A stretch of DNA of 64,000 nt from Allolobophora icterica (lineage: Eukaryota; Annelida; Clitellata; Crassiclitellata; Lumbricidae): assembly GCA_963556255.1 (NCBI GenBank), contig OY744616.1, positions 28,086,408-28,150,407 on the forward strand. The letters are read 5' to 3'. Shown piece by piece: positions 1,634 to 51,100 of the stretch. Position numbers and translations under genes: made by a program. The notes beneath the pieces were generated by a model, which had not been told where the DNA came from, did no database searches, and was given only the letters and a program-made list of their open reading frames with translations. Position 1 is the stretch's first letter. Each line of letters starts with the position of its first letter.

Positions 1634-1755
1634 TTAGTTCGATTTCGATGGCTTTCTTATGGCTTCGTAAACATCATTCGTTTCCGTCACCGCAACCAGA
1701 TCTTGGTAGATAGAATCGTCTGTAGCTTCTCCATTTTGTAAATCTTTTTTACCTT
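1634..1755 (-). CDS. Gene A exon 12: ITAM exon with stop
   Basis: The acceptor tttcttctag precedes a phase 1 exon reading [10 protein letters not shown], then DSIYQDL and DVYEAI, ending in SKSN and TAA. The two Yxx(L/I) boxes are nine residues apart, with Asp at Y-3 of the first, as in canonical ITAMs. Four related exons lie in gene B. Confidence 0.8.
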
Positions 1756-4700
1756 CTAGAAGAAATTTAATCAACATTGTTGTTTAATGTAACGCGCGAC
1801 ATGAGGCTATTTGTGTTCTATGCATATGCTGCAAAATGTAGGACTTCAGCCTATTTCTAAACATGTGTGACCCTGCATTTCTAATAGATCTAATGACACG
1901 AGGTCTATATAGAACCGTTATCATAAATCTGATTTCTAATTTGATGACTTTTATATTGTTTCTGTGGGGTCGTCATATCCATAGATCGCAGACTTCGGAA
2001 AGGAATGTAAGAAGAAACCTCCAGTGGTTGATATTATGCAGTAAGGATTTACAGGTCACAAAAGCAAGGTTAAATCTTTATTTGAATTCTAAAGAATTCT
2101 ACAGAATTCAAATGCAGCTGACTACTAAAACGGAAGTGGGTCTAAACTAAAAATCGTATTAGCTGCCAATGCCATACTTAACCAGCAACTTTTCACAAAC
2201 AGATTTTACATATGAAGGATAAATATCATAGGCCCTATTGCAATTCAGCCTTGATAGCAGAATCATCTTCCTAAAGTGTTATCTTCTTGAACAGTTATTA
2301 CTTCTCTATGCTGCATGAACCTTTGGCATTGGGCACTACTGTTTGGCTGCTGTATTAATGTCATTTGTCAGGTAGGTAACTCAAGTGGATTCATAGCATA
2401 TATGACGTACTTTTAAATTTGAAGATTCCTTGAATGCCTTTGTATACGTTAGCAAAAGTTGACTGTACAGTTGCAGTTTCTTTGGAATCGGCCTTTCTGT
2501 TACCTAAACCACAAAACCACTTCTATAATTATGACTGTTGAATAATTTGGCACACTGTTTATATTTAGGCATATCAAACTGTAATTTAAATTATGTAACA
2601 ATCTGCACTTTTCAAATGCATTGAAAGGCCAGAAAATACTTATATTAAATTCCCAAACTGTAGAAAAGTACACATACCTATGTTATAGTCCTTATATGTA
2701 TGTTTGTTGTATGACACGGTTTATTTTGGTTGCGATACTAGACGGCTGAGACAAATACAGAACTTCAATTGCCCAAAGGGACATAGATTTACAAACGATA
2801 TTCACTTAGCAAATTCCAGTTAACACGATAGGAGCCTAGATGGTGGGAGAGCGAGCTACCTAACTGCAATAAGATACTGAATTTACGAAAGTAGAGTGCT
2901 TAGTTTACTTTTATATGACCATTTATAAATATATTCGTAAAATTTCACTTTGTAGGCAATTAAACCAGCGCATATCTAATCCTAAAACGTTTAAGCTAGG
3001 CCTTAATAAAAAATCTAATAACACTCAGATGCTAGAACAGTGATCTAACTTCGCCATTGAATAACACAAACCTGGAGTGGAACACGAGGCGGTGGTGGAA
3101 CAACACTGTTCCTGTGTACTTAATTCATTGGGCTTTGGCTTGGTCTCCTTTTTTGAGACATCATCAAACTCTTCGTAGACAATATCTGAGGAGTCCAACT
3201 GGGAAGTGCTTGCGTTCGTCACTTGACTTCGGACATCAGCAAACTCTTCGTAGACGATTTCTGAAGAAGCTTGACTTCGAGAGCTCTCTTATTAAGTAAA
3301 AAAGTAAGTAAAGAATCCTTGAAGTAAAAATGCAACACCATGTGCATGCGTTCACTCAAACTTTACAACAGATATGCCATAACTTGCCTGAAACATTACT
3401 AGAGTATAAACAAAGTAGAGTCTTTCAAATCCAAACTTAAGACTTATCTCTTTGCGAAGACCCATTTTATCCAGTTAGTTGATTGTGAGGCGCCCTTGTA
3501 ACGGAAGGTTGTGCTATGGCGTCACAGCAATCGTAGTCGTCATAGTTGTTGTTATTATAATTATTGTTATTATTATTACAATTATTATTGATAAAGGCCG
3601 AGAATTCCGCTAATTCGTAGAACGACAGAAATTTATTGCCATCGAGACTCATTCGTTGTATTTTATTCACATCCACAAATGCAAAATAGCAAATTTGGAC
3701 AACGATGAAATTTATTTGATCATTAGGGTGTATGGTAAAAACCTTGATATACAGAAACAAATTTTACTAGTTCTCTGAATAATGCGTGGTTGCGTAGGCC
3801 TACTAATTGACAAGATGAAGATTTTGTTTTGATTGGCATTTAACTTCGGTTCGGCCAAAGTAGACAGCGCTGATTTGGAAGAGATGCTACATAAAGGTTC
3901 ATTTACAAAATATGTAGGCCTACATACATAGGCCTAGCTACATTCAGGCAAGAGAGGAGGCAGTTGCCTCCTCTTGGTTTAATAAATTAAAAAAATTTCC
4001 TTGGGCTATAGCCCTGCACCTGGATGTTGCCTCCTCTTGAAATTTTTTGTAAAGAATCTCCCAAAATAGGTTTTGTAAAGAATCTCCCAAAAAAGGTCAT
4101 CACATTTTAAAAAAAAGAATCTCCCAAAAAAGGTCATCAAATTTTTTCAAGATCAGTGGTTGCCTCCTCTTAAATTTAAGTCTGGCTACGCTCCTGTGTT
4201 TTCACATTATACATATCTATATTCATGCGGAATACATTATGAGAATATAGCAGAATGAACTATGTGCAGTTGAAAAAAACAGAGCATATATTCTATTTCA
4301 ATGTGATGTCATTCAGTTTAAAGTAAGAAGCCATCTACTGAACAGAAATTCAAACGTCTATTCAGAAAACGTCCGAGCCCTACGTAGTTCGTGAAAACAT
4401 ACGAGAAAGCAATATTGTAACTAAGCTTAAGAATATTAGCACAAGACCGGGGACTTTGGAAAAAACTGATAGATCATGCATTGGACACCTACGGGCCTTC
4501 GACCCACGGATCCTGATGATGATGAACTAAGTATAAACAACACAGTAAATAAGTAAGCAAAGTAAAGCTGCCATATCCCACGAGGGACGCAGAGGAATTA
4601 TTCATTTCCTTCACTCAATCTTTTAAGCCAGCAATGGACGAATCTCAAGGTCCTGGACACGGGAACAGCGCATCGCCGTTTGCTTACCATTTTACGTCGG

Positions 4701-10700: not shown

Positions 10701-13700
10701 GTTCTATGCAACGTCTGTCTGACCTATTATATGTGTTAAGTGTAATTACCAGATAAATTATGAATCACTTTCATAATATAAATTATGATCTGGAATAGGA
10801 ATGTTCGCAATGTCAGCTATGAATCTCTACAGAAGGAAATATTGGAACTGAGCTATTATCCTTATTCTTTCGAACGTTAGGCCTAAACAGACTACTTACC
10901 ATCACATGATCGTCCGTTTGATGCCAACCTGTAGCCTGTACGACAACTACAATTGTAACTGCCAACAGTGTTAGTACAGATTTGCTCACATACTCGTACT
11001 TCTTCTGTGCACTCATCGAATTCTGCAAAATTTAATTAAATTATCATCATACATTTGTCATCATACATCATGCATACACTTATTATCAAACGTTTCCAGA
11101 TTTCCAGTAAGAATAAAAGTATTATAATATTATTATCAATGCATCTTTCACTCGTCTCTTGACAAAAAAGCGTTACCTGCGTGACAACGTTGTTTGCACA
11201 GATTTTTGCGACTCGTTGTGATCAAAACGATGTCGGTGTAACATGTACAGGACAACGACGGATACTTATTGCAAAGTTTATTTATTTTCCAAGCACTAAC
11301 AAGTTGTAATGGAAATAATATTGCACCCAGATTTACGAGTAGCAGCTGTCTTGTTGATGCGACATCGCGATGGTTTCATCGTTGATTAGGACCTATATAA
11401 ATTAATCTAAGTGCAATGGAGCAAATCTGATGGTTTCATCGTTGATTAGGACCTATATAAATTAATCTAAGTGCAATGGAGCAAATCTGATGGTTTCATC
11501 GTTGATTAGGACCTATATAAATTAATCTAAGTGCAATGGAGCAAATCTGACGGTTTCATCGTTGATTAGGACCTATATAAATTAATCTAAGTGCAATGGA
11601 GCAAATCTGATGGTTTCATCGTTGATTAGGACCTATATAAATTAATCTAAGTGCAATGGAGCAAATCTGACGGTTTCATCGTTGATTAGGACCTATATAA
11701 ATTAATCTAAGTGCAATGGAGCAAATCTGATGGTTTCATCGTTGATTAGGACCTATATAAATTAATCTAAGTGCAATAGAGCAAATCTGATGGTTTCATC
11801 GTTGATTAGGACCTATATAAATTAATCTAAGTGCAATGGAGTAAATCTGATGGTTTCATCGTTGATTAGGACCTATATAAATTAATCAAAGTGCAATAGA
11901 GCAAATCTGATGGTTTCATCGTTGATTAGGACCTATATAAATTAATCTAAGTGCAATGGAGCGAATCTGATGGTTTCATCGTTGATTAGGACCTATATAA
12001 ATTAATCTAAGTGCAATAGAGCAAATCTGATGGTTTCATCGTTGATTAGGACCTATATAAATTTATATAAGTGCCATAGAGCAAATCTGAGCAATGTTTC
12101 TATCGTTTGATCGAGCCTCATGGTGATCATTGACAGTGAAAATTTGCCATGATAAGGAATGGCTTACTGCCTTTACTTGTTCAGAAGTTGTTCTCCAACT
12201 TCCGCCCCCGTCTACAATTAGTATGGAAGTGGATCAAATCGTATGCGTGGGAATAAAGATGAAATTGGTGATAGCATCATACAAGTAGATGCATCAATTT
12301 TACAAAGGTAAATTACTATAACTGAACATCTAAAAGTTTCGCGAAAGCAACGCCTTCTGAGAATGGGGTTACGGAATTTTCGACATCTCTGAAAGCAATT
12401 GAATACTTCAGAAAGATTTTGAGTTTTAACATTCAATGGATGTTGCTAAATATAGTTTAAACTTCAGAGAATTCTTAGATGATGGGGTGGGAGGCATTGG
12501 TGGATTTGAGCTAGAACGATCCTGATAGCTGTCTGTCGTACGCTTTCTTCTATGCTGTATTGAGGACGGTATGCAATGCTGTCAGGTCCTTCTTCATGAC
12601 TCTAATCCGTGTAGTACAAGATTGCCTGGGTTTTCCAATGTTTTTCATGAAATGAAATGTTTTAATGTATTTTTAGTCACAATTAAATGGCTAATAGTTA
12701 CTAATTAAATATACTCACTGCCGCTGTTATAAAACACTTCAGAGGAACATCTTACCGTCGCAGGCGGGGTACGGACTCCAACCTTTCTGACATCTAGTTT
12801 CAGTACTTGATTCGATAGCCGTTTCATCGCGGCAATTGCTGAGAAATAAAATACTCTTGCTCGTTACACTTGTTCTTTATCAGGTACCAAAATCAATAGA
12901 ACATACTAGTCTTCTCTTTGAATTTCATTATCCTGTCTAAATTCAAAATACCAACTGCTTCAACCTAAACCAATTGTTTCAACCTATCCACTATAGCCAC
13001 CCTTTATATTGCCCTATTAACCAGCGGAAGAGGCTCCACTTCTAAGCGGCAATGGCTTGATCTTGCACGTTGTTGGGGGTAACGACTCCACTGAGTTCAT
13101 CAAGTTACCGGTGAAATATTGTCATTCATCATTATCTCATGTTTACCAAAGATCATATACGTATTTTGACCAATGTCACGTTTTGCATACAGCAAGAGAG
13201 GCGGTGTAGAAGTTTACATTAATATAGTCGTCTATTTTCAGTTTCAATCTCCTACGGAGCTTCTCCAATACTACGCAGTTAGACCGCCTATTTGATCATA
13301 GCATCCTGTGACATCATCACAATAGTACAATGTTTACATTGACGAGTGATGACCTGAAATTCGCATGATAATACTGATGAACACAGAATAGGCATATCTT
13401 GCTTATGCCTATTCATCCTGTGACATCATCACGTCCCAAGAAGTTAGTCCAATGTTTACATTGATGACCTGAAAGTCGCATGATAATTATACTAATGAAC
13501 ATAGATATGTGAGCGAAGTTGTGCAAATAGCAACAATAGGCCTACTAGACGACGTTTGAAGAAATTTGTTTTGCTTACTCTGCTTGGCACACATTCCTAT
13601 TAACTATGTGATAAGTCGGATATGTCTCTGTATGACTGCAAAACATACATCAAAATATCTGTGATTCTAAAGAACATTCTATGCCATTATAAGAATTAGT

Positions 13701-21364: not shown

Positions 21365-29294
<7,930 letters not shown>

Positions 29295-31102: not shown

Positions 31103-31209
31103 TTACTTGTTGATGGGTTCGTATACATTCTTCGTTTCCCACGCTGCAACCAGATCTTGGTAGACAGAAGCGCCTGTAGCTTCTCCGGTCTTTGAATCTT
31201 TTTTCTCTT
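31103..31209 (-). CDS. Gene B ITAM exon 4 (most distal)
   Basis: A phase 1 exon after acceptor gtcatag, reading EKKDSKTGEATGASVYQDL and, nine residues on, YEPI, then NK and TAA. The spacing and stop position resemble the gene A last exon. Confidence 0.75.
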
Positions 31210-34200
31210 CTATGACAAATTTAAAATCAACATATAGGTCAATGCAAAGATTGTTAGAAGCATCGTAGGCATCTAAAATAAAGACCTTCAGTCTATCTCC
31301 AGTTCTCCGCCCATGTGATTGCCCTGCATATCTAATCTCATTCTAGACCTTCCCCAGCGCCATTGTCACGGTGTAACTTTTATTAGAATGTGCCGGTATC
31401 GGCTGCATATTAAGTTATAAACCTAAGTAATACAAAGGCAACGTATTAATTGAATCCATGACTACTTAAAATGGAGGTGGGCCTATTTACTTAACATCTT
31501 ATAAGCGGCCTTAACTAAGCAGAAACTTTCCAAGAACAATATATGAAGGATATCGCCTAACGTGCATTACATATCGCCATGCAGTCCATAGCGGAATCGT
31601 TTTCAGATGTGCTTTTAAAAAGTTTCGAACTTCCTAAAATGCCATACTTCGCAGTCATCCACGTAACTCGTCTTTCAACCTTCTGTATCCACTAGTCATC
31701 ATTCTGTTCGAAAACATTATTATCTGACTTTCTCACGTTATTGCTCAAGTAGAAAAATAGCATACAGGGCATACTTTGAGATTTGAAAAGTCCTTCAACG
31801 CTTTTGTTGACGTCTGTCGAAGTCGACTGTCCAGTTGCAGTTTCTTTGGAATCGGCCTTCCCGCTACCTAAATCATAAAACTAGTTATAGGGCCTATATG
31901 AGTGTTTAATCGTTGTTCGACGCACACATATTTTAAATTTTAATCTTAATTTCCATTATGTAATTTGTCAACTTCGCAAATGCATTAAATGCCTAAGTTG
32001 TGCTGTTGTTAGAGTAATGGCGTGAAGAGCAGTAGGTACCGAGATCGATTCCCGTGGACCCCGTAAGGTTTATTCAGCCTTCCACTCGCTAGGTGGCGGT
32101 GGTGGTTAAATGAATAGTAGGCTGTGATGGTAAGCGCTTAAAACAAGAAAAGATTATTATTATTATTATTATCGTTATTACATAATCCATGACAGTGCTG
32201 CATCGTGGATCAGCCAAGATACCCACATCCTCTGATCGCAGACTTCAGTGAGATCGGTAAGGAGATGCAAGTGGTTGAAGGTAGGTAGGAGTGTATGTTG
32301 TTAGGTTTTTTGGAACAGAAGGGCTAGTTTAAGACTTATCCTGAATTCTACAGAAATCCAAAGCAGTTGACCAAGCAGGGTTGAGGACTTTGTACGAGAA
32401 AATACACTCAATCTCTCACGACCCAGAGAATTTTTTATGCTTTGAAGCCTATTGAATTGAACATCTGAGACACGCGCAATAACCCAGTTGATCGAGAGAG
32501 AAAACAGATAAGAAAGCAAGTCAAGATCTATGACGTGTCATTTATAAAAGCAGACTTATGTGACACATTGCCCTGAGGTGATAGAAACTACATTTTCAAA
32601 GGTTTGCTATGATGTCTCAAATGCCAGATTAGAGTCCAGAGTCCAGAGTCGCCCCAGACGTTTTAGAGTTCTCGCTAGCAACAAAAGTGCCAGTAGGGCC
32701 AATGTGGAATGGGAAGGGAAAGAACGTAGTAGGCATTGTGTGAGCCTAATATGATTCCCACAGATTTGTCTGAACCTGTGGCTAGGCAGCTGAATCTTCA
32801 AGTGTTACCTTGCTCGACTGATCAGTGGGTGATAAGGCAATGTAAAGCTGAATGTCGTTGGCGTAATACTGTAGCTGGACTCCAAAGGTGATTGGCTATA
32901 CTGACCCTACACGGCGGATGGGTATAATGAAAATTCATATATAATAAAGTGTCCCTGTGAGATACCACTAGTGCAAAGAGAAGGACCAATACAAATACCA
33001 GTAGGGCCAATGTGGAATGGGAAAGGAAAGAACGTAGTAGGCATTGTGTGAGCCTAATATGATACCCACAGATTTGTCTGAACCTGTGGCTAGGCAGCTG
33101 AATCTTCAAGTGTTACCTTGCTCGACTGATCAGTGGGTGATAAGGCAATGTAAAGCTGCATGTCGTCGGCGTAATACTGTAGCTGGACTCCAAAGGTGAT
33201 TGGCTATACTGACCCTACACGGCGGATGGGTATAATGAAAATTCATATATAATAAAGTGTCCCTGTGAGACACCACTAGTGCAAAGAGAAGGCCCAATAC
33301 AAATACCCATTTTCTCAGACCTGTTACCAAGGCAGATTCTAGTCAGTTTCAGGCAGTCCCAGAGACCCCAAGAGCTTTAGTATATTTAGAAAGCAGTACT
33401 TGGTTGTCAACAGTGTCAAAATTTGGCGCTTGTTTTAACACTTTTGACCACCAAACAAGCGCCAAGTTGGAGACATACCGAGATTTACACCTTCCCAGTA
33501 CCAACAGCTGAGAAGATGTTGTCCAGCGTAAAGACAAAAACAGTTTCAGTACGGTAGCGTTCACGGTAAGCTGATTTCTAAAGTATAAAAGCTAGGAGAT
33601 GAAATAACGTATTTGATTAAAATCAGTTTAAGGAAGAGAAGTTCAAGAAACTTTTGTCACTGGAATCCTTGTTGGCTTTTCCTTGCACCGATAGCTTGTT
33701 CGGTTTCGAAGGCTTTGTGATGGCCTCATAAACGTTATTCGTTTCCATCACCGGAGCCAGATCTTGATAGATAGTATCTTTTGTAGCTTTTTCATCTTTT
33801 AAATCTTTCTTCCCTTCTAAAACAAAATTTAATTTCAATCAACATTGCAGGTTAATGTACGGCATGACATTAGACTATTAGTGTTGCATTTATACGCAGC
33901 AAAATTATAAGCCTCTAGTCGATCTTAACATAATTATGTGATAACCTTGTACAATGTACATAATTATATTATTATAATCAAATTTAATGACGTACATAGT
34001 TGTAATTTCTTGACTTCTATATTGTCTCTACAATACCATCGTCATATTGCGATGATCACTTCAAGTGAAACTGTAAAATAATTATTAGTTGTAGTATAAA
34101 ACATTTTATTCACTAAAAGTCACGAATTTGTGAATCTGAGGGGCGGTTAGGTAGTCATTAAGTAAAAGTAAACTATAATGGGTCAGAGTGTCTAGTTTAG

Positions 34201-37200
34201 GACACATTTTGAATTCCACAGAAAGCCAAAGCAATAAACCAACCAGTGTTAAGAATTTTATAGGAAAAGATGCGCACGTTATGAATTTTAAATGCGTTGA
34301 AGTCTTCAGGCTCCAAGATCTGAGATGCGCGTAAAAACAGAGGTGGCATGATCGAGGTGAGAGAAGATAAGAATGGAAGACATGTTCTGTTACATTCCAT
34401 GATAAGAACAACCCTATGTGAGGTACTACCGTGATATGATAGAAACTACATTGACAAAGGTTTGTTATGTGGAGTCAGAATGTGAGATTACTGTCCAGAG
34501 CAACCCAATCGTTTAGGAGTTTTTGCTATCAGGAAAACAGTGACAGTAAGGTTAATGCTGGAGTAAGAAGTGAAAGTGCGTAGGCATTGTGTGAGTCTAA
34601 TATGATTGCCTCAGATTTGTCTGAATCTGTGGCTAGACAGCTGAATTAGAGCCATGCATGCACTGAAGAGAGGCAGTCTTCAAGTTTAACCTTGCAGGAC
34701 TGATCAGTGGGCGATAAGGCAATGCAAAGCTGAATATCGTCGGCGTAATGCTGTAGCTGAACTCCAAAAGTGATTGGCTATAGTGACATACATGGAAGAT
34801 TGGTATGATGAAGATGGATTTAAGAGGGAACAAAGAACAGATCCCTGATATCAGCAGTGCAGACAGAAGGATCAGACCGAGGAATTTAAATACCCACTTG
34901 CTCAGACCGTTAACAGAGGTAGAACCTGTAGCCAGTTTAAGGCGGTCCAAGAGACCCCAAGGCCTTTAGTAAATTTAAAAAGTAGTTGTTGGTGGTCAAC
35001 AGTGTCAAAACAAGCGCCAAATTCGAGACATACTGAGATTCACGGCTTCCCAGAACCAAAAGCTGAGGAGATGTTGTCCAGCTTAAAGGCGAGAACAGTT
35101 TTAGTGGAGTAGCGTTCACGGTAAGCTGATTGAAAAGCTTCAAAGTTAGGAGATAAAATAACGTATTTGTTAAGGAAAAGATGTTCAAGAAACTTTTGTC
35201 ACTGGAATCCTTGTGGGTTTCTCCTTGCACCGATATCATCTTTGATTTCGAAGGCTTTGTGATGGCCTCGTAAACGTTCTTCGTTTCCATCACCGCAGAC
35301 AGATCTTGATAGGTAGAATCTTTTGTAGCCTTTTCATCTTTTAAACCTTTTTTTCCTTCTAAAACAAATTTAAAACAATATTGTCGATTATTTAACGCAC
35401 TTACATTAGGCTATTTGTGTTGCATATTATTCGCAACAAAATATAGGCCTTTATCCGATATTCACATATGTGATAACCCTGCACATGTAATTTAATATAA
35501 TGACACATATAATTATTGCAATGCTGTCATAATTATTATTAATAATTTTATGACTTCAATATTGTCTGTACAATGTCATCGTCAAATTATCATAAGTGAA
35601 ACTGTAAAATAATTATTAGTAACAGTATAAAGTTTGTTAACTCGCTAAGAGTTACAGAATTGTCAATCTAAGGGGCGGTTAGTCAGTCATCAAGCGAAGA
35701 TCAACTTGATGTCCAGATATTTTTGAAGTCAGAATTAGTGACTTTTGTGCCATCTCTTGAAGGAAGAGTAACAGTTTCAGCATTATGAGAAAGAGTGGTA
35801 GTTGGTCCACTTTTATACAGGTAGCAACATGTAATGCGCAGAGCCCATGACAGTGCTGCATCGTGGTTCAGTCAAAATACCCAAATCCAATGATCGCAGA
35901 TAGGCTATCGTGGGGGGAAGTAAGAAGATACTAGTGGTTGAAGGTAGGTTGGAGTGCTTTTGTTATTAGGTTTTATGGGTCAGAAATGCTAGTTTATGAC
36001 CTATTCTAAATTATACAGAAGGCCAGAGCAGTTGACCAATGAGGATTAAGGGCTTTGTACGAGAAGATGCACGTAATATTAAGCGACCCACTGATCCAGA
36101 GAAATTTACATACGTCGAAGCCTATGCATTTCAAGATCTAAACTACACGCAAAAATCGAGTTTGCATGATCGAGGTCAGAATGCAGATAAGAAAGCAATC
36201 TATGTTCTCTAACATATCTTTTATAAAAGCATACGTATGTGACCTATAATAATTATTGTCCTGATGTGATAGAAACTACATTTGCAAAGTATTGTTATGT
36301 GGGGTTGAAATTTGAGCTTACTGACCAGAGTCACCCCACGCCTTTTTAAGAGTTTTTGTTGCAGAAAAACAGTGCCAGCAGGGGCAAAGCTGGAATGAGT
36401 AGGGAGAGAACGCAGGCATTGCGTGAGCCTAATATGGTTGCCTCAGATTTGTCTGGATCTGTGGTTAGACAGATGAATCATAATCATGCATGCACTGAAA
36501 AGAGGCACTCTTCAAGTGTTACCTTGCCGGACTGATCAGTGGGTGTAAGGCAATGCAAAGCTGAATATCGTTGGTCGCTTATTGCTGTAACTGGACTCCA
36601 AAAGTGATTGGCTATAGTGACCCTACATGGGTGATTGGTATAATGAAGATTGACATAAGACTGGACCGAGAACAGATCCCTGAGAGATAACAGCAGCGCG
36701 GACAGACGTATCAGACCGGACAATATACTTGTAAATATCCACTTGCTCAGTCCGTTTGCAGACGTAAAAGCTAGCCACTTTTCGGCAGTCCCAGAGACCC
36801 CAAGGCTTTTAATGAATTTTAAAAGTAGTAGCTGGTGGTCAACAGCCTTTCCAGTATCAACAGCTAAGAAGATGTTGTCCAGCGTAAAGGCCAGAACAGT
36901 TTGAGAAGAGTAGCCTTAACGGAAACCTGATAGGAAAAAGACTAAATTTAGGAGATGAGATAATGTATTTCTTTAAATCAGTTCAAGGCATAGATGTTCA
37001 AGAAACTTCACTAGAATCCTTGCTGGCGTCTTCTTGCATCGATATCTTGCTCGATTTTGAAGGCTTTTTGATGGCCTCGTAAGCGTTACTCGTTTCCATC
37101 ACCGTAGCCAGATCTTGATACTTGGAATCTTTTGTAGCTTTATCAGTTTGTAAATCTTTCTTTCCTTCTAAAACAATTTCAAATCAACATTGTTGGTTAA

Positions 37201-40200
37201 TGCCATGCATTTACATTAGGCTATTCGTGTTGCATATATGCGCAGCAAAATATAGTCCTCCAGCCGATCTTCACGTATGCCTTCAAAATGTGATGACTCC
37301 AAGTTTAACCTTGCCACTCTCATCAGTGGGTGATAAGGCAATGTAAAGCTAAATATCGTCTGCTAACTGCTGTAGCTGAATTGCAAAAGTGATTGGCTAT
37401 GCGGGTGATTGGTAAAGAGAACATTGTTAAATTTAGGACCGAGAACAGATCATGTGAGATACCAGCAGCACACAGAGAAGGATTAAACCGAGCAATACAA
37501 ATACCTACTTGCTCAGACCGATTACAGAGGCAGAAGATGGCCAGTTCCAGCAAGTCCTAGATACATCAAAGCTTTGAGTAAGTTTAGAAAGTATTACCTG
37601 TGGTAAACACTAAACAGTGTCAAAGGAGCCGCTAAGGTCGACGCATTCTGTAATTCAGGCCTTTCCAGCGTCAAAAGCTGAGAAGATGTTGTCTAGCGTA
37701 AAAGCGAGAACAGTTTCGGTGGAGTAGCTTTCACGGTAAGCTGATTGGTGAGGACTAAAGTTAGGAGATGAAGTGATGTACTTCGGTTAAATCAATGTAA
37801 GGATATGTTCATGAAACTTTCAAACGTTATCGATGTTGGAGATGAGTCTAAATGTTGGCACTCTGTTGGTGTCTAGGTCGGGTTTCTTTTAAATAAAGTA
37901 AGTAGGCCTAATTAGTTGAAGAAGTCCATTCGAAATCGGTAGTTCAAGTCATTCTCAAAAGAGTGTCTTGCATACCTCATTATTAGATGAAAATGCCTGC
38001 TTTGTCAATTTAGTTACTTTGATCTCTGCATCTCTAAAGTTAAATCTCTTCGCGTCGTCAAGTAAAGGAGCACAGCAAGCCTAAATAAGTAGCTCTGTAC
38101 AGTTGTTAAATTCAGTGAAGGCGTGAAAACAACTGCAACTGCATTGTTTGCCGCGAACAGCCGCCTATCGAGTCCAAAGTGATAAATAGCTGACTAAGAA
38201 AACGGAAGGGGTCAATATTCTAAGTCTTACAAGCTCTCATGCTCAACCAACAACTTTCTGCGAACACATGTTGCATATGAAGGATTCAAAGTAAGATCGC
38301 AATGAAGCCTATTTAGCTATTTTTCTCAGGTCTTCCAGCAAATTTGAACTTCCTAGTCCTGCATAAACAATACATGTTACTTCAGTCTGCTGGGATAGTA
38401 TCCATTAGTCATCACACTTGTCGAAAAAATTATTATCTGACTTTCCCAAGAAGAAAAGTCAAGTAGATAAAAAGCATACATGACATACTTTGAGATTTGA
38501 AAATTGCCTGAAGGGGTTTGCAGTCGTTAGCTGAAGTCGACTGTCCAGTTGCAGTTTCTTTTAAATCAGTCTTTACGCTACCTAAACCATAAAACTACTG
38601 GTATACGATTGTTATTATTTTTCATTTTTATTTCCATCATGTAACAATCTGCACATTGATCGGTCGCGAAATGGTATTATATGCGAAAAACTTGAATAGT
38701 ACGTGGACCTGTGTTTTGAGCATAACACGTAAGGCTGCAGTATGCCACGGTCTCAATTGGTAAGATATTGAACTGAATTTAGGAAACTGGAGTATTAACG
38801 TGAAGGTCATTTAACTTTTATATCACCATTTATAAAAATATTCGTATAGTTTCACTTCATAAGCAATTCTACCACCAATACCTAATTCAAAAACATTTGA
38901 GATATGCCTTAATAAAGCCCAATGTAACCCGATTCAGATGCTAGAGCAGTAGTCTAAATTCGTTATTTAATTACACAGACCTGGTGTGGAACACGAGGTG
39001 GTGGTGGAACAACATTGATCCTGTGGGTTTAAGTCTTTGGTCTTTGGCTTGGTCTTTGGCTTATCCTTGCAGACATTTTCCGAGGACGCCAACTGGGAAG
39101 TGCTTGTATTCGTCACTTGACTTTGGACATCGGCAACCACTTCGTAGTCATTTTTTGAGGACGCTTGTCTTCTGGAGTTCACTTCAATAAAAAAGTAAGC
39201 CAGCAATCCTTGGATTAGAGATGTAACACTATATAAGCCGATAAAGTATGCCAGAATCTGATTGAGAATATATTAAAGTACAAATAAAGATTTAGAATCC
39301 TGCTAATTCGTAGCATGACAGAAATTTAGTGCCATCAGTGCCGGTTTTAGGGGCGTGCGAACCGGGGCCCGCAACTTATGGGGGACCCCGAAAATGTCAC
39401 AGAAAATTAACATGAACAAGACACCCTAATAATAATATTATTGTTTCGATTTAATCATCTCTTTTGTCAGTAAAATAAAAGTCAACTCCCTCTATGTCAC
39501 ACTTGTACTTGTCAACAATCTACTAAAATAACAGGGCCTATGATTGGCAATGAAAAACAATTTGACTTGTGTCATAGGGGCATGTACATTGTACAGTATA
39601 CTCTGCGCGGGGCCCGAAATATGGTGCCATCGAGACTTATTCACTCTATTTGGCCAGATTAACACCAAAAATACAAAAATAGTATATGCATTAAACAGAC
39701 AGTCCAACCATAAAATATATTTGACGATTAGGGTCTATCATAAAAACTTGATAATAGCAGTATATGAACAGATGATATTGAAGGAAACATTTGCTTGCAA
39801 AAGTTTGTGTTTTCCTTCTCAGCATCATAACTGGTTCTCATTGCTATTATCTTTTGATCTAATGGTTTCCATTCTAATTTTGAATTCAATCCTATCAAAT
39901 CTTGTGTAGTCTAGTCCGGCCCAACCAAACCAGTTCATTGCAGTCTATTCCATTTGATTTCAGTTCATTAAATTTTATTATGAGACATATGACGTGTGGT
40001 CGAACAGTTAACACTGTACGAATATTTGAATAATCAATGAATATTAAACATAAAAAGTGCACCTATTTTATTTCTCTTCCGTTCCTTTAAACGTTTGACG
40101 AAGCATACACCTGCTGTGGTGATCAAAAAGATTCCGACGATGACGCCAACTGTGACAACGATGACCAATCTAACAGTTGCCTCTGACATCCATCTGCTGT

Positions 40201-43200
40201 CGCGCTGACCTTGTTGCAAGCAATGTTGAACATAGTTAGAATCAAGCGGTCATTTTAGAAGGACAACATTCGGGTGAATGGGCTTAGTATAAGGTTGAAG
40301 GCGTAACAAATGCATATGTATATATATAAACTACAGGAGTTTATATTTATATTGGGTCTATGAAGAATAGTCATAACTAGGGACAGTAGAAAATCACGGT
40401 AAAAAAATGCCAAAAACACGGCATACTTTTTAAAAAATCGCGAAAAACACGGCAAAAACACGGCATCAAAATTTCACAGTTTTCTTGTAACACATTATAT
40501 GTTTATCTTTCATATTCATTGTTCATTGACAAATTGACAATAATTGTCAACCATTTGTCAGTCATTGGTTCCTTGCTGTAGCAGTTTAGCTGCGAGCATT
40601 GAATACCAATTATACCATCATAACATGAAGCGCTAAATTGTCATCTGTCAAATTTTGACGTTGAGGTGCATTCACCAGTGTGTATTGACTAACGCTCCGT
40701 TCTGCATCAACAGAATTGCCAGGAAAAATTGCAACAAAAACGGCATTTTTTTACGAAAACACGGCAAATGTCAAAAATCACGAAAAACACGGCAAATGCC
40801 GAAAAACACGGCTTCCGTGTTTGCCGTGTTTTCGTGATTTTCTACTGTCCCTAGTCATAACTGCAACGTTGTTAGATGGTTGTTAGATTTAGGCCTACTA
40901 TTCTAATTATCAACCGAAACACAGCTGTTGTGGTGATTGTCCTGAATATGGCTCTTGAGATGAAACACACGTGTTGAATGTTTCTGTTTTGAAGTTTCAC
41001 TTACACTTGTAGCTTCCGATCATGTTCTCGCAAGTCAAGTTCTCGTATAGAGTGCAGTTGTTGGCTAGGGTTTCGCATTCATTGATGTCTGAAAATGCAA
41101 GATAGGTTTAAGGTATAAGTCAGCTTAATGTGAAAAATAAATTTACTTTACTATTCTAGTAAATTGGCAACTGCATTTACCTTTCCTCTCCACGGTTCAA
41201 TTCCGATTGTCAAGTCACGCAATGAATGCGAAACCCTAGCCAACAACTGCACTCTATACGAGAACTTGACTTGCGAGAACATGATCCGCAATCCGCGAGA
41301 GGAAAATGTTGTCTAATTTCAGGCTTGCTGTCGCTGTGATTAAGTTTAAGCCAAACTCAGATGCGCGTTTACAGAAAACTGGACCTAGGCGCAAACATTT
41401 TTAGGACCGCTTCTGAACTTGTTGACTGAGAGTCTGAGACTCTGGTGTTGTTTAGCCTATCATGTGCAAAAACCGCGAAGTTGAACTTCAAAAATTCAAA
41501 ATTCTAAAATGTTATTCTCATTATTGAAAATAATATTTTCATTCGTTTGGGGCCCTAGGCGCGATTAGTGCCCTTATGCGTAAACGAGTCTCTGTCCAAA
41601 CTATCCTTTAACTGCAGATTTCTGCGTATACTGTTGCTTGAAGAGGAATGTATTGAACCCAGACCACACACACTGGCACAATTCTAAACAATGTTGGATA
41701 ACGTTAGGAAGGCACTGTTCAACTGGGTACGTTAGTTGGGAAAAGAGCGTATTAATAGCTTTACCTAAGCTAAGTAAGAAACACGTTAAAGCCTGCATAC
41801 AAAACATAGGCCTATCACGCTGCCACACCAACGACACACGAATCACACCGTTGCTATGGACACAGGTGATAAGAAGTGAAAAATATGCTTACCATGACAC
41901 TCTCGTTGTCCCACTTGCTCGAATCCAGTCTTGCACACACATTGGTAACCACCGATGGTGTTCTTACAGGTAAAGTTCTCCAACATGGCGCAGTCGTCTA
42001 AGTGGGCGGTGCATTCGTCGATATCTATAAATGGATCCCAATTCGTTAATGTCTGCCTCTGATTAGCTTAAACTTTGTTATCAGTATCCCCGACACAGGA
42101 CAATTTCACAAAGTAAAGCTTTACATTAGTAGAGTTCTCCATTAAAAGTGAAACTGCAAAATAATAATTTTAGTGCCCACAAATAAGTGCTGAAAAGCTC
42201 AGAGAAAAATCGTCATGTTCTTCATCTAGGCTCACTCAGCTGATTGAAAATAATTGCATAATAATTGGTGTGTCGTCGAATTTGGTCGGACGCTTTATGT
42301 GGTACTGAGCATTGACATATTCCTGCAGCACACACACACACACACACACTGATATCTACAAGAAAAGCTCGGTAAATTTTTATTATTTGCTTTAAGAATG
42401 TCTCGAATACTTTGGTACAAACGTCATTACACCTAAGCTACTAATAAGCAAACAGTCCATAAACACTAAATGCAAACAGTTCGCAGATAGCAAGAACTTA
42501 AAGGATTTGCTCGAAAAAGCACTAGAATAATGAAAGACAGTCAACAATGACATATAAGATCATTTTAAGATTATGTGCGGGAATTTTATTTTGAGTGACA
42601 CGATATAATGTGACTTTAAAAGAAACTTTTGCATTAATTGTTCATTGTTTAGATTTAAATGCCAGCAATAAATCTAAATGTATCTTAATTACACTATAAT
42701 TATACAAGCTAACAACGACGTAGCTCACCACTGCATGATTGTTTATTTGTTGCCAAACGATAGCTCGCATTACAGCTACATGTGTAACTGCCAATTGTGT
42801 TAGAACAGCTTTGTACACATACAGATTTTCCTTCAGTGCATTCATCAATATCTACAATAGTCAATTCAGTTTCAAATATTTGTAATACATGGATATTAGA
42901 GAAAAGTTTCTCGTGCAAATAACAGTCAATCATGAGTTGGAAACCAAACCCGATTAGAGATACCTTTGTAATGGAGGTATTTCATTGTGTGCGGTTCGAC
43001 AAATAATTGATTTTAAAATATTTTTAACAAACCCTAAACCCACTGTAGCCTTGCCTCTGGTTTCTCTACCTATTGTAATTCGACTAACATTTCCATCGAC
43101 TGATGACTTGCGAATTATGACAATTGGGCTATTGAATTAACTAAAGTAGATACACTTAACTAAACTCAATGAAAGCATTGATCTGCATGAATACGCTGAT

Positions 43201-45107
43201 ATCCATAAAAGCATAAATATATATAAACTCATCAATATTCGGGAAGTTACGGTTTTGACTACAAACTCCAACTCCAAGCGAACAATTTATCTCAACAAAA
43301 ATATGTACCATTATTTTTAAATGCTGACCTCTTCGCTATACTCATTGTCTTACACACCAAACTTTGTAAAAGCGCTGATCTCAACAGGCTTCTTTAACTG
43401 TAATTTTCGATCATTATAGCCAACGGTAGTCCTTCCTTTTTCACTCACCAGTGCATGCCGGTCCATTTGATGTGTAGCCCGCATTGCAAGCACATGTGTA
43501 ACTGCCCACATTATTATAACATATCTGTGAACAACTTGATGTTCTCTCTTGGCATTCATCAATATCTGCAAACAGCTAGCTTCAGTATTAATTTGAATAC
43601 ACATTTTATAGCGTAACGCTGTTTAATAGAAGGAGGCTGTATATGGTTGGGCTCAAGACTTCAAAGAAACTTTCAAAAGAGATGTAGGAGTGGAGGCAGG
43701 GAAAAACCAATAATTTAGGTAAGGAAGAAATGTTTTCGAAACTTTGCATGAGTTGTTGGTTGAAAGTTATGCAGAATTGGGATGAAAAATTGTCCAATGC
43801 AAAAAGATGACAAATTTCAGTCTTATACGCGAAATGTCGCCTGCAAGAAAGTTCTAGATTTTTGGAATGTGTATCAATAACCGATTTAATAACTTATTTA
43901 AAGGCCAACCAAAAGGTCTTTGATAATATAACCAATGATTAGACCTCCGTTTTGAAGTAGCATTAAGAAGTCTAAACTCTATAGCGAGTTTTCTCTTTCA
44001 CTCAATATTACATTACTACAAGCCATTATTTGGAATCCTGCAACACTATCGCAGCTAACAACGCCAATAATAATTAATAGAAATAATAAGACTATAGCAC
44101 AGTCGTAGGCTGGATTATGCAAAGTCTCCCTAAGTATAATTACTTTATTAGGCCTATATGTAATTGTAATCCAGCGTTACAATGCAAGATCTGGATTATG
44201 AGCGTAGTTTAATTGTTAGTAATGTCAGTTATTAATCTTTAGAAAAACAAGTGTAGGAATCAATATAATTATATTCTTATTCTTCTGAACGTTAAACAGA
44301 CAACTTACCTTCACATGATCGTCCGTTTGATGCCAACCTGTAGCCTGCATTGCAGCTGCAAATGTAACTGCCAACAGTGTTAGCACAGTTATGAGCACAT
44401 CCAGATGTTCCTACTGTGCACTCATTGAAATCTGGAAAATTTAGTTATATTATTAGCAAACATTAAATTATGTTTCGCGATTTCCAAAGTAGGCGATTAT
44501 TATCACTGGCGCAAACGTGTCCAAAATATTTGGGGCCATGAGGTCTGGACCAGAGGTGCAAAAAACCAAGTTTCTTTCGAGATTACTTTTTTCTTGTTTT
44601 CTTCGTTTTTTGGTATTGCTGTTTTCGTTATTTGCTTTTTAAGAGTTTCGGATTTTGGATCATAAAAATCATGATAAATGGCACAAACAAGAGCTCCAAC
44701 TCAGTTTAATTCAGTTGCGATTTCTGAAAATTAAAAATCATTCAATCAATGTTATTAAAATAACTTCTACAACAAAAAGTAAATTTATTTTTTAAAAAAA
44801 CAACATTTTGTGGTTTTCTTTTACTGTGTTTATTTAAAACCCAAAACCAAAAAACCCAACTTTTTCCCCTCTGGTCTAGACAATCAGCAAGCCTCAGAGC
44901 CTTCCGGTGTTACATAATGCGTATAGGCTAAATGGGTACGTTTTGTTTACATGTAAATTTGTTTCATACTGAAGATATTGAAGATAGAAATAAATGTTTG
45001 TTTTCATTACGAATTTCTGATAGTATTTCAGTTCTGTGTCTCTGTTTTTCTGTTTCTGAAGAAATTTGTCTATATCAAAACGTAATCTATATATATAAAG
45101 AAGAAAC

Positions 45108-45193
<86 letters not shown>

Positions 45194-48100
45194 ACAGATC
45201 TTTGACCGGAATGCATTTCTACACCTTTCGAGCTTTTCACTCCAAACCTTCACTGCTGTCTCGGGGTGGGCATAACACAGCCAGTGTGAGGTTTCGATTT
45301 CCCCGTTTTCACCGCTACCATCAGTGCCTCCACTCATTGGGAATTTTCCCAAGATCTTGGGAATTGGCGGATCGACTTGGGATCTGGGGATTTTCCATGG
45401 CAATCTGGGGATTTTTAACTAAGGTCTATAGTCATAATATAATATTAATATTACATATGGAATTATAACAATAATCACTTGTTGACTTCTTGTCGTTGAG
45501 TGACTCTTTGGACATGTGTCTACGGCTACTGGTCGTTTACTTCTGTACCTTACTTACACTTATCTTGTGAACAACATGATGTCATACTTCATCCGTAGAT
45601 TCCGTAATCCATAGTTCCATACATTTTACCGCCGATACGGACGTTCCAAGTTTTAACGCAATTATTAAAGGAAACGGACTAAATCTGGATGAATCATAAA
45701 GTCGTAACAGTTTTAAACCGGAAGTTGTCATGTCTGATTCTGAGTCTGAGTCTGGCGACACTAGCGCCGAGCCGTGTTAGAAAGCAAAGGTATGGTAAGG
45801 ACAACTGTTCAACGAGGAATGGCTGAAAATCGATGAATTTAAACTTTGGCTTAAACCAAAGCGAGGAGATAAAATTAATGTGCAGCAAAACGTAACGTTT
45901 GTTCCAAAACACTGACTGGCGTTAACAGGTCGGCACTAGTGAAACACGCAGAGCCTGCAAAACAGGTTAAAGACTACGAAACACAACAGGGCATGATTTG
46001 TATCAATAAGTTCTTTAAAAACGCGACCACTCGCACAATTGACTGTATGTCAATTAGGCCAACTTGGGATTTTTAGTACAATCTTGGGATTTTTGTGGCA
46101 AGATCTTGGGATTTCTGAAAATGGAGAGTGGAAGCACTGGCTACCATGGTCTCCCGGCCAAAAACCTACCCTCGCCATGCATTTTTACCTCATAACAGAA
46201 CCTTAGACTAAACCTATTTTCACTCGCCAGATGGAGCTGCCAGGTTAAGCAGCTACAGTACGGATTCGCTAGAGGGATTGAAACTTTGACAATGGTGATG
46301 ATGCAGCTACAGTACGGATTCGCTAGAGGGATTCAAACTTTGACAGTGGTGGTGGGTGGTGGTGGTGGTGGTGGGTGGTGGTGGTGGTGGTGGGTGGTGG
46401 TGGGTGGTGGTGGTGGGTAGTGGGTGGTGGTGGGTGTTGGTGGTGGTGGTGGGTGGTGGTGGGTGGTGGTGGTGGGTAGTGGGTGGTGGTGGGTGTTGGT
46501 GGTGGTGGGTGTTGGTGGGTGTTGGTGGTGGTGGTGGTGGTGGTGGTGGTGGGTGGTGGTGGTGGTGGTGGTGGTGGTGGTGGTGGTGGTGGTGGTGGTG
46601 GTGTGGATTGAAACTTATAACCCCGGGCAACGCCGGGTAAACCAGCTAGTATTTAATATTTGAGGAAGTGCTCCTCTCAATTATTGGGGGCATTGCCCCA
46701 CCTCCTCAATTATTGGGGGCACGTGCCCCGCTGCTCCCTAGAGTCTACGCCTATGGTTATTATATTATTTTGTTAATGCTTATTGCGCTCGTCTTTTAAT
46801 GCGGACTTCTGCGCAGTCATTGTAATAAAAACAATCTCAATGTTAGTTGTGCAGGACATCGAATCCAATATAATAATCGTTGGTCAGAAATAAAATAGGC
46901 AGGTGGTCTGAAAATGTCAGTAATTAGTATTACAGAGGTTTGGTTGTCGGTTAGAATGTTAGTGGGTGTAATGATCTCCCAAACCACACAATGATTCCCA
47001 GCTACACAACATGCTATAAGATGTTATAGTGTAGAGAAGAATCTATTTAGATTATATAATGTAGGGTAGTAGAGCTACATAAATGTAACTTAATTAAAAT
47101 GCCAGCAGCTAAGCCAGCATTGTAGGGATTAATTAATATTAGATAGAGGGGTTCATCATATCTACGCAAAGGACAGCAGACGATGTGGACTCACCTCATT
47201 GGTCAGTACGAACAGCTGATCAAATACCGTTATGGCGAAGCGGCTGACGACTCGGTAACCAAGCAACCGTGGTGACGTGGCGTGGAAATGCAGCAGTTCG
47301 ATTTTTGATTTCAACTGAACAAGACGTTCTAGAAATCTTGAGTGGATCGACTCGGTGGATGTTAGACTAAGTCGATGAGAGGGCATCGTTAGTCAGTATA
47401 CGATCGGTTTTGCGAAACGATCGATGCAGTTGAGTTTATAAGTCGAGACGTTGGACAGCGAGGATCGAATAATTCGAGTGAAACGCTCTCGTAACAAACC
47501 GTTGCGAAGCGTGACTTTCCATCATAGGAAGTCAACATTTGCGAAGCGATCTTGTCAACGGACTTAAGGAGTTATTCCGCGAGTGAAGTGTACGTTACTC
47601 TGGAGTAGTAAAGCACACACTCGGGTTGTAACGACGGTCTCTTTGGGAGAGACATCAAGCTACGAGAAGTCACGAGAACGGTGGACAGTCGAGCTTCGAC
47701 GAGGGAGAAACAAGGCGATTTGCGAACGGATCTGCGAACTCATAAGATGAACAAACGGATGAAAGACAGCTCTTCCACAAGGAACAAACTGTGAGAACAT
47801 TCCGTGCTAAAGGGTCTTACTGGGAGGTAGCAATAGGCAATAAAATCTAGATAGCAAAGATGCTGGCTAGGTAGGGAATAAGGCAAAGTAGACATAGGAT
47901 AACTAGACATTGAACTGTTACATGCTTTAACTGATATACATTATATTCTTATTCATTTAAATGCATACCCATGTGTTCTCTGTTCATTTCCCTAGTCAAA
48001 TAGATAGGCCTATGCATTTCCTTGTCCAGTAAAGACAAGATGAAACAAAACTAAAGTAGTCGTGGGTGTAGAACATAACACTAAGCACTCTTAGTATAGG

Positions 48101-51100
48101 GTGGCGCTACATAAATGGGGGCTCGCTCTCGGGATTGAATTGTATAATCAATTAAGGACATTGATTAAATCGATCTGGGATCATATCTTAGACACAAGTG
48201 GTGTATTTAGATAGGATAGAATAAGTAAACAGAGATATTTACTTACGCGCTAGATATAGCATATCTTGTCGTCTGCGGTATTCATTAATACGCATGACGT
48301 AATTGAATTTTGAATTGTGACCAATCATACGTTGTCGAAGGTGAGGTCAGGTCAACGGTTGCAAATCGCAAAAGCTAACTATTGGTAAGAGTTAGGTCAG
48401 GTCAAGGTTGTTCAGTGTTTAAGTTATAAACAAGGTGAACTAGCTTTGAAATCTGAAATTTATCTTGAGCCTTATATCAAAGAAAATTGATATAGCGCAA
48501 TGGCTGGTGAGATTCAAAAGTGGATTAAGGTGGCGCAGGACCTTGGATACGCAGAAGATGCTGTTAGAGAATATGTCAAGGAGAGGCAGAATGAGATTAG
48601 GGAAGATAAAAGACGTGAGGCTGAGGAAAAGCTACGTCTAGCGGAAATGGAAAAAGAAGAGAAAAGACGCGAGACTGAAAGGGAAGATAAAAGACGTGAG
48701 GCTGAAAAGGAAGATAAAAGACGCGAGGCTGAAGAAAAGCTACGTCTAGCTGAACTGGAAGATAAAAGACGTGAGGCCGAAGAGAGACGGATCTCCGAAG
48801 AAATGAATTTGAAGAGGATAGAAATGGAAAATCAGAAGGAGATAAAACTAAAAGAACTAGAGCTTCAGATGACACGTGAGACAAGACGAGAAGATGGAGA
48901 TAGGATAAGACTTGATGGAGATGGAGAGTATTCTGGACAGGCAAATAATGCCAAATATGTTAAGATGCCCATCTTCAGAGAAGAAAAAGATTGTTTAGAT
49001 GCCTATCTCCTCAGATTCGAGAGGACCTGTACAGCATACAGAGTTCCGAATGAGTTATGGGTTCTGACACTAGTGAAGTCGCTTCAAGGAAAAGCGCTCG
49101 AAGTGTATGAACGAATGAGTATAGAAGAATCTCAAGACTATGAAAAGTTAAAGGAGAGACTACTCATAAGGTTCAAATTGTCAGAATCAGGGTACCGAAA
49201 TTTGTTTAAACAAAGCCCTAGAGAAAAAGACGAAACTCCGGAACAATATGTAGGAAGACTTAGACGTTACTTAAGACAGTGGCATCAAATGTCAGGCTTT
49301 AGTGAAGACAAAGAGGGTTTGGAACAACTCATACTGAGAGACCAGTTCTTCATTATGTGTGACAATGATATGAGACGCTTTCTAAAGGAGAAAGGGAAAC
49401 TAAATCTTGAGGACATGTTGGAACAGGCCCAAAACCTTATAGAAGCGAGAGAATCGGATGAAATGAAATGGATTCATACTCAGAAGAATAGAGACAAAGA
49501 ATCCAAAACGCAACCGAGGGACAATAAGCAGAAGAGTTTTGAGAATACAAGCAACTCTCACAACAAATTTAGAGAACAGAGGGAGTTCAGAGATAAAAAT
49601 CAATTCAAGAGTAATTGGAAGTTCTCCGACAACAAGAAATATGGAGTAGAAACAGAAACCCAGAAGACGGGATGTTTCCGCTGTGGATCAAAATTTCACA
49701 GAATAGCCCAGTGTAGTGAGAAAGATAAGACAGGGAGAGAACATAGAGTAGCAACAATGCAATGCGACGAGGAATCAAGTGAAAATGGAGATAAACAAGA
49801 GGCAGTAATTTCATACTGTTCCGCATACGTTGAACAAGAAGGAAAGTGTATAATAGAAGAACATAAATATCAGGGACCAGTTGTAATTAATGGATGTGTA
49901 AAGAAAGGAGTCTTTGACACTGGTTCAAATTGTGTTGCTGTAAGAGAGAGTCTGATCAAAAAAGACGAATACATAGGTCGAAATATGATATGTACTTTCA
50001 TGAATGGTACTAAACATGAGTATCCGATGGCAAAAGTCGCAATACAGAGCGAATACCTCACAGGCGTGGTAGAAGCCGCTGTGATCAAAGACCTAGAAGA
50101 AGAAGCTATCATTGGATCAAGAGTAGAAACTATTGAAGATTCTAAATTGAATTTGTGTTATTGTGAGGCTGAAGTAGTAAAGTGGAAGAAAGAGGCAGAG
50201 AAAGATACTGAAGAGTTCACTAGCAAGGTCAGAGTAAATGAAATAGATACTATATGCCTTTATGATACAGGAGCAAATTGTGTCGCTGTGCAAAAGAGAT
50301 TAGTGAAACCAGAACAATACACAGATAAATTTATGGTGTGCAGATTTGCTAATGGCAAGAAAGAAAAATATCCCATGGCAAGAATTAAGATTGAAGGTAA
50401 TGACTTCAAAGGTGTGACGGATGCTGTAGTAATAGAATCCTTGGTGATAGGATTAATCACGGGTCCATGTTTGTACGAGAAGAGTATAAACAGAATCCAA
50501 CCGAAAGGAAAACATGATAAAGAGAAGACGGATAAATCATGTGAACCTAAAATTAGTAGAGCCAAAGAGGAGAAAAAGAAAGAATGGAATGTAAAGGGTT
50601 GTGACGCTGAAGGGATGAGATGCAATAAGGCTAAATCATCCATAGAAATCCAGAACACAACTGGACATGATTGTGAGATTATCACAGAAACAAGAATAAA
50701 TGAACGAAACGGCAAAGCAGAAGTGGTAATAGCAGGATGCACGACACGAGCACAGGATGAGATAAAACGGAGACGTGTCGAACGACCACTGAAAATACCA
50801 GAAGTAGCAGGTTTATATCTCAAACCAGAGGAGATAATGGAACCTATAGAACCCAGGTCTAGCAGAAGAAACCATTTAGTGGAGAACAGAAATAATGAAG
50901 AGAATAAGAAAATGGGATATAGGAAAGGAAGAAATTGGCAGGAGTCCAAGTCATATTACATGAAGACATCCGAGAGAGCGGATGTAACGGAAAAGAAGAA
51001 TTACGGAAATGACGGGAGATTTCATAGGTCTGATCAACAGGCGATGCAGACAAATTATAGATACGGAGATAATACGTGGAATTGGCGAAGGCCAAGATGT

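Follow-up and report, generated by a model that had tools for sequence, protein, structure and literature searches.

Gene B, on the minus strand of the window (the whole stretch of 64,000 nucleotides analysed), carries four homologous exons that each encode the ITAM-type motif YQDL-x9-YE(A/P)I, share a common entry phase and hold their own stop. We tentatively read the gene as a single-pass EGF_CA-type receptor in which these are alternative last exons with their own short C-termini, at least two of them being used, a model to which we give somewhat less than an even chance. The sequence itself gives four homologous exons in one phase with own stops, weak downstream donors and a tandem origin of three of them (B1–B3).

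Architecture of gene B and its paralogue

Gene B comprises five EGF-type exons (the fifth being a half domain), one exon each for the transmembrane (TM) segment and the tail, two KETAT linkers of 93 nt and the four ITAM exons (Table 1), with the 3' exons in the order linker 1-B1-B2-B3-linker 2-B4. All nine upstream exons are phase 1-1, lack internal stops and frameshifts and keep all of their splice dinucleotides; as the tail exon also exits in phase 1, it could be joined directly to the ITAM exons. A Pfam scan of ten ORFs revealed no EMI domain, and the N-terminal exons of the receptor were not located. No NPxY occurs in the tail, linker and ITAM exons scanned in genes A and B, a set that does not include a possible extra tail exon of gene A.

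An earlier, sequence-only reading had described four ITAM exons in gene B, the same module in gene A, an AG acceptor with phase-1 entry in every copy and KETAT linkers that exit in phase 1. Motif positions and a DNA profile built from the five ITAM exons bear this out: those five alone lie above the inclusion threshold, the linkers are present in three copies, and the profile detects no decayed sixth ITAM copy. The same reading counted an own stop in only three of the gene B exons, which is wrong, since all four have one. In B2, the open frame runs for ~85 codons into the neighbouring repeat before its stop.

Gene A is a paralogue of gene B, and its in-window part holds a single ITAM exon. It is unlikely that gene B is dead or unexpressed and that gene A is the working locus: gene B keeps intact frames and splice dinucleotides across its nine upstream exons, and A/B dN/dS is 0.37–0.40 for EGF4 and the tail exon, against which stand high values in other exons (TM 1.56, EGF1 1.07) and a half-EGF/TM junction that reads TAG in gene B and TAC in gene A. 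Because this junction would read TAG, the half-EGF exon of gene B is probably skipped in the membrane form.

Table 1. Positions of exons and repeat segments in the window
Feature	Position	Strand	Details
Gene B EGF exon 1	44309..44431	-	phase 1-1; cysteine pattern and splice sites
Gene B EGF exon 2	43449..43565	-	phase 1-1; cysteine pattern and splice sites
Gene B EGF exon 3	42729..42851	-	Pfam EGF_CA E=1.1e-10; splice sites
Gene B EGF exon 4	41893..42024	-	Pfam EGF_CA E=1.1e-10; splice sites
Gene B half-EGF exon	41005..41088	-	splice sites; A/B dN/dS 0.05
Gene B transmembrane exon	40063..40182	-	hydrophobic stretch and splice sites; weak donor (88th percentile)
Gene B cytoplasmic tail exon with YEVV	38981..39181	-	exits phase 1; homologous to gene A 3072-3287
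Gene B linker exon 1 (KETATGQ)	38489..38581	-	phase 1-1, 93 nt
ITAM exon B1	36998..37167	-	YQDL-x9-YE(A/P)I at 37120-37070; own stop 37000; 55 full codons
ITAM exon B2	34937..35358	-	YQDL-x9-YE(A/P)I at 35311-35261; own stop 34939; 139 full codons
ITAM exon B3	33623..33816	-	YQDL-x9-YE(A/P)I at 33769-33719; own stop 33625; 63 full codons
Decayed repeat segments, read as LINE-like	32187..37820	-	between, before and after B1–B3; self-alignment
Gene B linker exon 2 (KETATGQ)	31775..31867	-	phase 1-1, 93 nt
ITAM exon B4	31103..31209	-	YQDL-x9-YE(A/P)I at 31162-31112; own stop 31105; 34 full codons
Gene A linker exon	2411..2503	-	DNA profile
Gene A ITAM exon	1634..1755	-	YQDL-x9-YE(A/P)I at 1708-1658; only copy of gene A within the window

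Motif criteria

The ITAM consensus is Y-x2-L/I twice, with a textbook spacing of 6–8 and a relaxed one of 6–12. All five exons have a spacing of 9, which lies within the relaxed range and outside the strict one. ITAMs also typically carry an acidic residue at -2 or -3 of the first Tyr; it is present (D at -3) in B1, B2, B3 and A and absent in B4. By the gene model, the ITAM exons are cytoplasmic, i.e. in phase behind the TM exon. No ITAM model in Pfam matches any of the five exons up to E=10, the motif being very short.

A loose six-frame scan (Y-x2-[LIV]-x6-12-Y-x2-[LIV]) returns 51 matches, the five ITAM exons and 46 others, while a stricter pattern ([DE]xxYxx[LI]x6-12Yxx[LI]) returns four, all of them ITAM exons (B1, B2, B3, and A). 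The stricter motif occurs 0–4 times per shuffle (40 shuffles, mean 1.55), so the count by itself is unremarkable. The case rests on homology, location behind the TM exon and conservation, not on motif number.

Splice donors and poly(A) signals

Donor strength was expressed as a percentile among GT sites, using an approximate scoring matrix. The phase-1 GT sites after the ITAM reach the 82nd percentile at best, whereas donors of the nine upstream gene B exons lie between 88 and 99.9 (e.g. linker 1, 93.8; linker 2, 92.0; TM, 88.2), and the gene A TM donor is at 86.8. Downstream donors are thus weaker than upstream ones by a small margin, and the ITAM exons look like last exons. The earlier reading is thus supported in part: the ITAM exons of this one receptor gene are homologous, phase-compatible and terminal in type, each with its own stop, and their mutually exclusive use is a possibility.

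Serial splicing of the ITAM exons into a multi-ITAM tail like that of CD3-zeta is very improbable. It would be served by phase-1 entry throughout and by phase-1 GT sites near the ends of B1–B3 (37011, 35202 and 33660), and weak donors also exist upstream (TM exons, 87–88th percentile). However, these B1–B3 sites are in the 81st–82nd percentile, below all upstream donors scored (86.8–99.9), which makes ITAM-to-ITAM joining unlikely, with the margin narrow and the matrix approximate.

The hexamers AATAAA or ATTAAA are found 187, 829 and 594 nt past the stops of B1, B2 and B4, respectively, and neither occurs within 1000 nt past the stop of B3 or of the gene A exon. Poly(A) hexamers are thus inconsistent across the ITAM exons, and the evidence from them is weak.

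Origin and conservation of the array

Self-alignment indicates that B1–B3 originated by tandem duplication of an exon together with an old repeat. Four open pieces of this repeat gave no reverse transcriptase match in Pfam that would identify it as a LINE. Allelic or assembly duplication is an unlikely source of the array, the copies being 10–23% apart across the exon core and adjacent flanks. An exon lost before B1 was also considered, as the repeat at 37820–37297 starts near the start of the repeats after B1–B3; it is unneeded, because that copy extends further in the frame of the repeat (read by eye).

Divergence among B1–B3 is 0.096–0.154 in the exon core against 0.144–0.227 in nearby introns, and that of the C-terminal extensions (0.167–0.229) is not below the introns. 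dN/dS is ~0.9 for both B1/B2 and B1/B3, and models with omega free or fixed at 1 are 0.75 lnL apart, which is not significant and does not reject neutrality. Despite this near-intron divergence, retention of YQDL/YEAI and of the reading frame in B1–B3 exceeds chance. Specifically, motif columns are invariant more often than others both across all five exons (7/8 vs 14/34; P = 0.0039) and within B1–B3 (8/8 vs 23/34; P = 0.027), and the 152 exon nt of B1–B3 are free of indels, against 4.2 predicted from the rate in introns close by (P = 0.015). Frame and motif were both retained in 3.4–8.4% of neutral simulation runs for B1–B3 and in 0–0.5% for all five exons. Narrower tests in B1–B3 were not significant, i.e. 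the four defining residues alone (P = 0.19) and indels in the 104-nt core (P = 0.055).

These data bear on another reading, in which a single ITAM exon is used (B1, the first met, or B4, with its own linker) and the rest are passive, young duplicates produced in tandem by the repeats. We regard this as a genuine possibility, if clearly short of an even chance. Repeat copies account for the duplication without selection, B2 lacks a compact stop, B3 lacks a hexamer inside 1 kb, exon divergence is close to intron divergence, and the omega test is not significant; on the other hand, the profile detects no decayed copy in addition to the five ITAM exons, and the lack of indels and the complete motif retention go beyond chance.

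Relatives of the ITAM exons

Among 262 candidates, P0003 is the sole match to the five-exon profile (E=1.8e-11); it keeps YQDL-x9-YEPI and clusters with B4 (89% ultrafast bootstrap). A spliced TM-tail-ITAM query found no relative among 632 candidates, and PDB gave no match for the ITAM exon or for the 24993 ORF. The linker-2/B4 pair resembles the gene A linker/ITAM pair in spacing.

Proposed model

Under the alternative-tail model, each transcript would join the last common exon (the tail exon or a linker) to a single ITAM exon, a choice that would fix the C-terminal extension and, with B4, also the residues preceding the first Tyr. Src-type phosphorylation would come next, and a tandem-SH2 kinase of the Syk type would then dock. 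Linker 2 and B4 are probably the original tail and B1–B3 a later expansion, possibly via recombination between repeat copies.

The phases, the donor gap, motif and frame retention, P0003 and precedents for spliced ITAM/ITIM tails favour this model. Against it count the near-intron divergence of B1–B3, the non-significant omega, the run-on of B2 into the repeat and the uneven poly(A) hexamers; in addition, the ITAMs are nearly alike, so the benefit of choosing among them is doubtful. It is possible, though clearly short of an even chance, that the array serves as a tail selector, i.e. one ectodomain with interchangeable activating tails, kept and enlarged by repeat-driven exon duplication. If so, it would be an expandable, exon-level form of invertebrate tail-motif splicing, would show how tail repertoires grow under a constant ectodomain and would make gene B a clean test case for regulated ITAM tail choice. 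Should a single ITAM exon be in use, the locus would be an ordinary case of repeat-mediated exon duplication.

Comparison with known systems

Spliced signalling tails are already known from Draper, Botryllus FcoR and shrimp Dscam, and the tandem ITAM exons of gene B, if used as alternative tails, would belong to the same kind. An alternative last exon also alters the ITAM tail of CD247 (CD3 zeta/eta), which carries different ITAMs in series and is not known to have a single ITAM exon duplicated in tandem. Titles and abstract openings of a few papers on ITAMs with alternative last exons or with mutually exclusive tandem exons mention no such array, which does not prove its absence in print.

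The oyster CgIgIT2 is a membrane receptor with a classic ITAM, for which recognition and ERK signalling are reported (PMC11999971); unlike gene B, it has five Ig domains and, in the passages available, no alternative ITAM exons. In Penaeus monodon, Dscam has alternative cytoplasmic exons, with two stop-bearing last exons and a skippable predicted-ITAM exon (PMC6851185). It differs from gene B in its Ig/FNIII ectodomain, the PDZ motifs on its last-exon variants and its single ITAM exon. The fester co-receptors (FcoR) of Botryllus have ITIM/hemITAM tails, and oligomorphic loci can exchange one motif for the other by alternative splicing (PMC12065747). By contrast with gene B, their ectodomain is Ig/sushi, their motifs are hemITAM/ITIM rather than full ITAM, and the accessible passages describe no ITAM exon array.

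Drosophila Draper, a relative of MEGF10 and CED-1, shares with gene B an EGF-like ectodomain and an ITAM tail. An EMI domain marks the Draper/MEGF10/CED-1 group, and Draper further has NIM repeats and an NPxY motif that CED-1 also carries in its tail; gene B has EGF_CA-type EGFs and no NPxY in the tail exons found. The splice isoform Draper-II has an ITIM in place of the ITAM (PMC8092387, PMC4503800), whereas gene B presents the same ITAM type throughout a tandem exon array.

Exon anatomy of the receptor genes

A loose six-frame scan returns 51 ITAM-like matches, five of which read YQDL-x9-YE(A/P)I: four in gene B (an EGF-type receptor gene) and one in its paralogue, gene A. All five lie on the minus strand, and the remaining 46 matches are unrelated. 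The same five places exceed the inclusion threshold of a DNA profile built from the five exons and their flanks. Scan and profile thus bear out the sequence-only reading, in which four gene B exons shared the ITAM module of gene A: the array is real.

Based on splice junctions, gene B runs EGF1, EGF2, EGF3, EGF4, half-EGF5, TM, tail, linker1, B1, B2, B3, linker2, and B4, where B1–B4 are the ITAM exons and the linkers are 93-nt KETATGQ exons. Gene A has the same exon kinds and order, and holds a single linker and a single ITAM exon; this count applies within the window, the edge of which lies ~1.6 kb past that ITAM exon, and more ITAM exons of gene A may lie beyond it. All nine upstream exons of gene B (five EGF-type, TM, tail, and two linkers) have AG/GT borders, a length that is a multiple of three, and phase 1-1, so each can be joined in phase to each ITAM exon; the earlier proposal that the linkers exit in phase 1 holds for both. 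EGF3 and EGF4 of gene B and the EGF4 exon of gene A pass the Pfam EGF_CA cut-off; no N-terminal receptor exons were located.

Coordinates of exons and other elements in the window
Feature	Position	Strand	Remarks
ITAM exon, gene A	1634..1755	minus	
Linker, gene A	2411..2503	minus	
Tail exon, gene A	3072-3287	minus	two YEEF
Possible extra tail exon, gene A	~4996-5082	minus	27 residues
Half-EGF exon, gene A	5991-6074	minus	
Near-perfect tandem array	11369-12090		60-bp unit x12, 97%
Near-perfect tandem array	14067-14648		28-bp unit x20.8, 99%
Long open frame	21368-22168	minus	
Long open frame	24993-25484	minus	
B4	31103..31209	minus	
Linker2	31775..31867	minus	
Repeat segments	32187..37820	minus	
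Recent 308-bp duplication in array	32690-33307		98% matches
B3	33623..33816	minus	
B2	34937..35358	minus	
B1	36998..37167	minus	
Linker1	38489..38581	minus	
Tail exon, gene B	38981..39181	minus	one YEVV
TM exon, gene B	40063..40182	minus	
Half-EGF exon, gene B	41005-41088	minus	
Partial inverted half-EGF copy	41221-41298	plus	
LTR-type retrotransposon	~47165-53107		
Its gag-like ORF	48491-51349	plus	
Its RT_RNaseH	51775-52368	plus	

Given their tail motifs, the A and B tails differ before the ITAM as well. A linker DNA profile recovers the three linkers and a weak fourth match (5071-5006, E=0.0082) in what may be an additional gene A tail exon, with a phase-1 entry and a YxN motif.

The half-EGF exon is the most conserved among the A/B exons compared (26/28 residues, dN/dS 0.05). 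Its donor, T|GTAAGT, interrupts a Cys codon; unspliced, the exon ends in KCK-stop in both genes, and its junction codon with the TM exon is TAG in gene B and TAC in gene A. It may be an alternative exon yielding a secreted form. The inverted copy lies in the intron immediately upstream.

ITAM exons as possible alternative last exons

Three ITAM exons had been credited with their own stop, but all four have one in the acceptor-set frame, 55, 139, 63, and 34 full codons from the split codon in B1, B2, B3, and B4. No phase-1 GT site between ITAM and stop scores above the 82nd percentile of same-strand GT sites, against 88.2–99.9 for the nine upstream donors of gene B, a narrow gap under an unfitted scoring matrix; the four gene A donors scored lie at 86.8 (TM), 94.6 (linker), 95.8 (tail), and 96.6 (half-EGF). 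Within 1 kb past the stop, AATAAA/ATTAAA occurs at 187 nt for B1, 829 and 951 nt for B2, and 594 nt for B4, and is absent for B3 and the gene A ITAM exon. The ITAM exons look terminal, with putative 3' ends, and alternative last exons are, tentatively, the best-supported reading of gene B.

A close second, somewhat less probable, is that one ITAM exon is used and the remaining copies are passive duplicates. Among B1–B3, the 104-nt core diverges by 0.096–0.154 vs 0.144–0.227 in well-aligned flanks within 700 nt (farther flanks align partly poorly), while the 48-nt C-terminal extension is flank-like (0.167–0.229). Pairwise dN/dS is 0.90, 0.89, and 0.35 among B1–B3 and 0.37–0.74 against B4 and A, and freeing the parameters of a codon model (lnL -354.96) gives no improvement over fixing omega at 1 and kappa at 2 (-355.71). 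Pointing the other way, invariant columns are concentrated in the motif (five exons: 7/8 vs 14/34 in the remaining exon, P=0.0039; B1–B3: 8/8 vs 23/34, P=0.027); restricting the test to the four defining residues gives P=0.022 and 0.19, respectively. No indel occurs across 152 nt of the B1–B3 exons vs 4.2 expected (P=0.015; core alone, P=0.055). In neutral simulations on star trees, with B3 as ancestor and branch lengths that we set from distances, frame and motif survive in all of B1–B3 in 3.4–8.4% of runs and in all five exons in 0–0.5%. The evidence that the copies were kept is moderate, because the tests draw on common data and it was the motif that first drew attention to the array.

Origin of the array and relatives

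Including downstream flanks, B1 and B2 are 73.6% identical over 1361 aligned columns and B2 and B3 73.5% over 1230, while B1 and B3 align with flanks in pieces (444–824 columns, 69–80%). Homology of B1–B3 to gene A stops shortly past the coding part, where the repeat starts. We read this repeat as a decayed LINE from its reverse-transcriptase-like stretches; the four pieces tried gave no Pfam match to reverse transcriptase. Unequal recombination between repeat copies would likely have expanded the array. By coordinates, the linker2-B4 pair resembles the linker-ITAM pair of gene A in the gap between its members (~570 and ~660 nt), vs 1320 nt between linker1 and B1.

A spliced TM-to-ITAM query has no match among 632 candidates. 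The five-exon profile finds one protein among 262, P0003 (E=1.8e-11, 61 aa, source 'lgn'; it contains YQDLAAVTEANDFYEPI). As its similarity extends into residues read from the intron end of B4 (VDFKFVIE), P0003 probably represents genomic DNA. In a protein tree, B4 pairs with P0003 (ultrafast bootstrap 89%) and A joins them next (78%), with B1–B3 separate, which is weak evidence given the 37-column alignment.

The EGF-type receptor Draper has an ITAM tail, which gives way to an ITIM in splice form Draper-II (PMC8092387, PMC4503800), splicing exchanges ITIM and hemITAM at Botryllus FcoR loci (PMC12065747), and shrimp Dscam has stop-bearing alternative last exons and a predicted ITAM within a skippable exon (PMC6851185). 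A change of signalling tail on one ectodomain is thus of a known kind; among the publications listed on ITAMs with alternative last or mutually exclusive tandem exons, none was seen to describe a tandem array of several ITAM last exon copies.

Other features

The two long open frames lying between the receptor genes pass no Pfam cut-off and are possibly NLR-like in our reading; the longer has two relatives (60–65% identity across 97–98% of its length). The retrotransposon upstream of the first EGF exon of gene B carries an identical 76-aa minus frame at each end.
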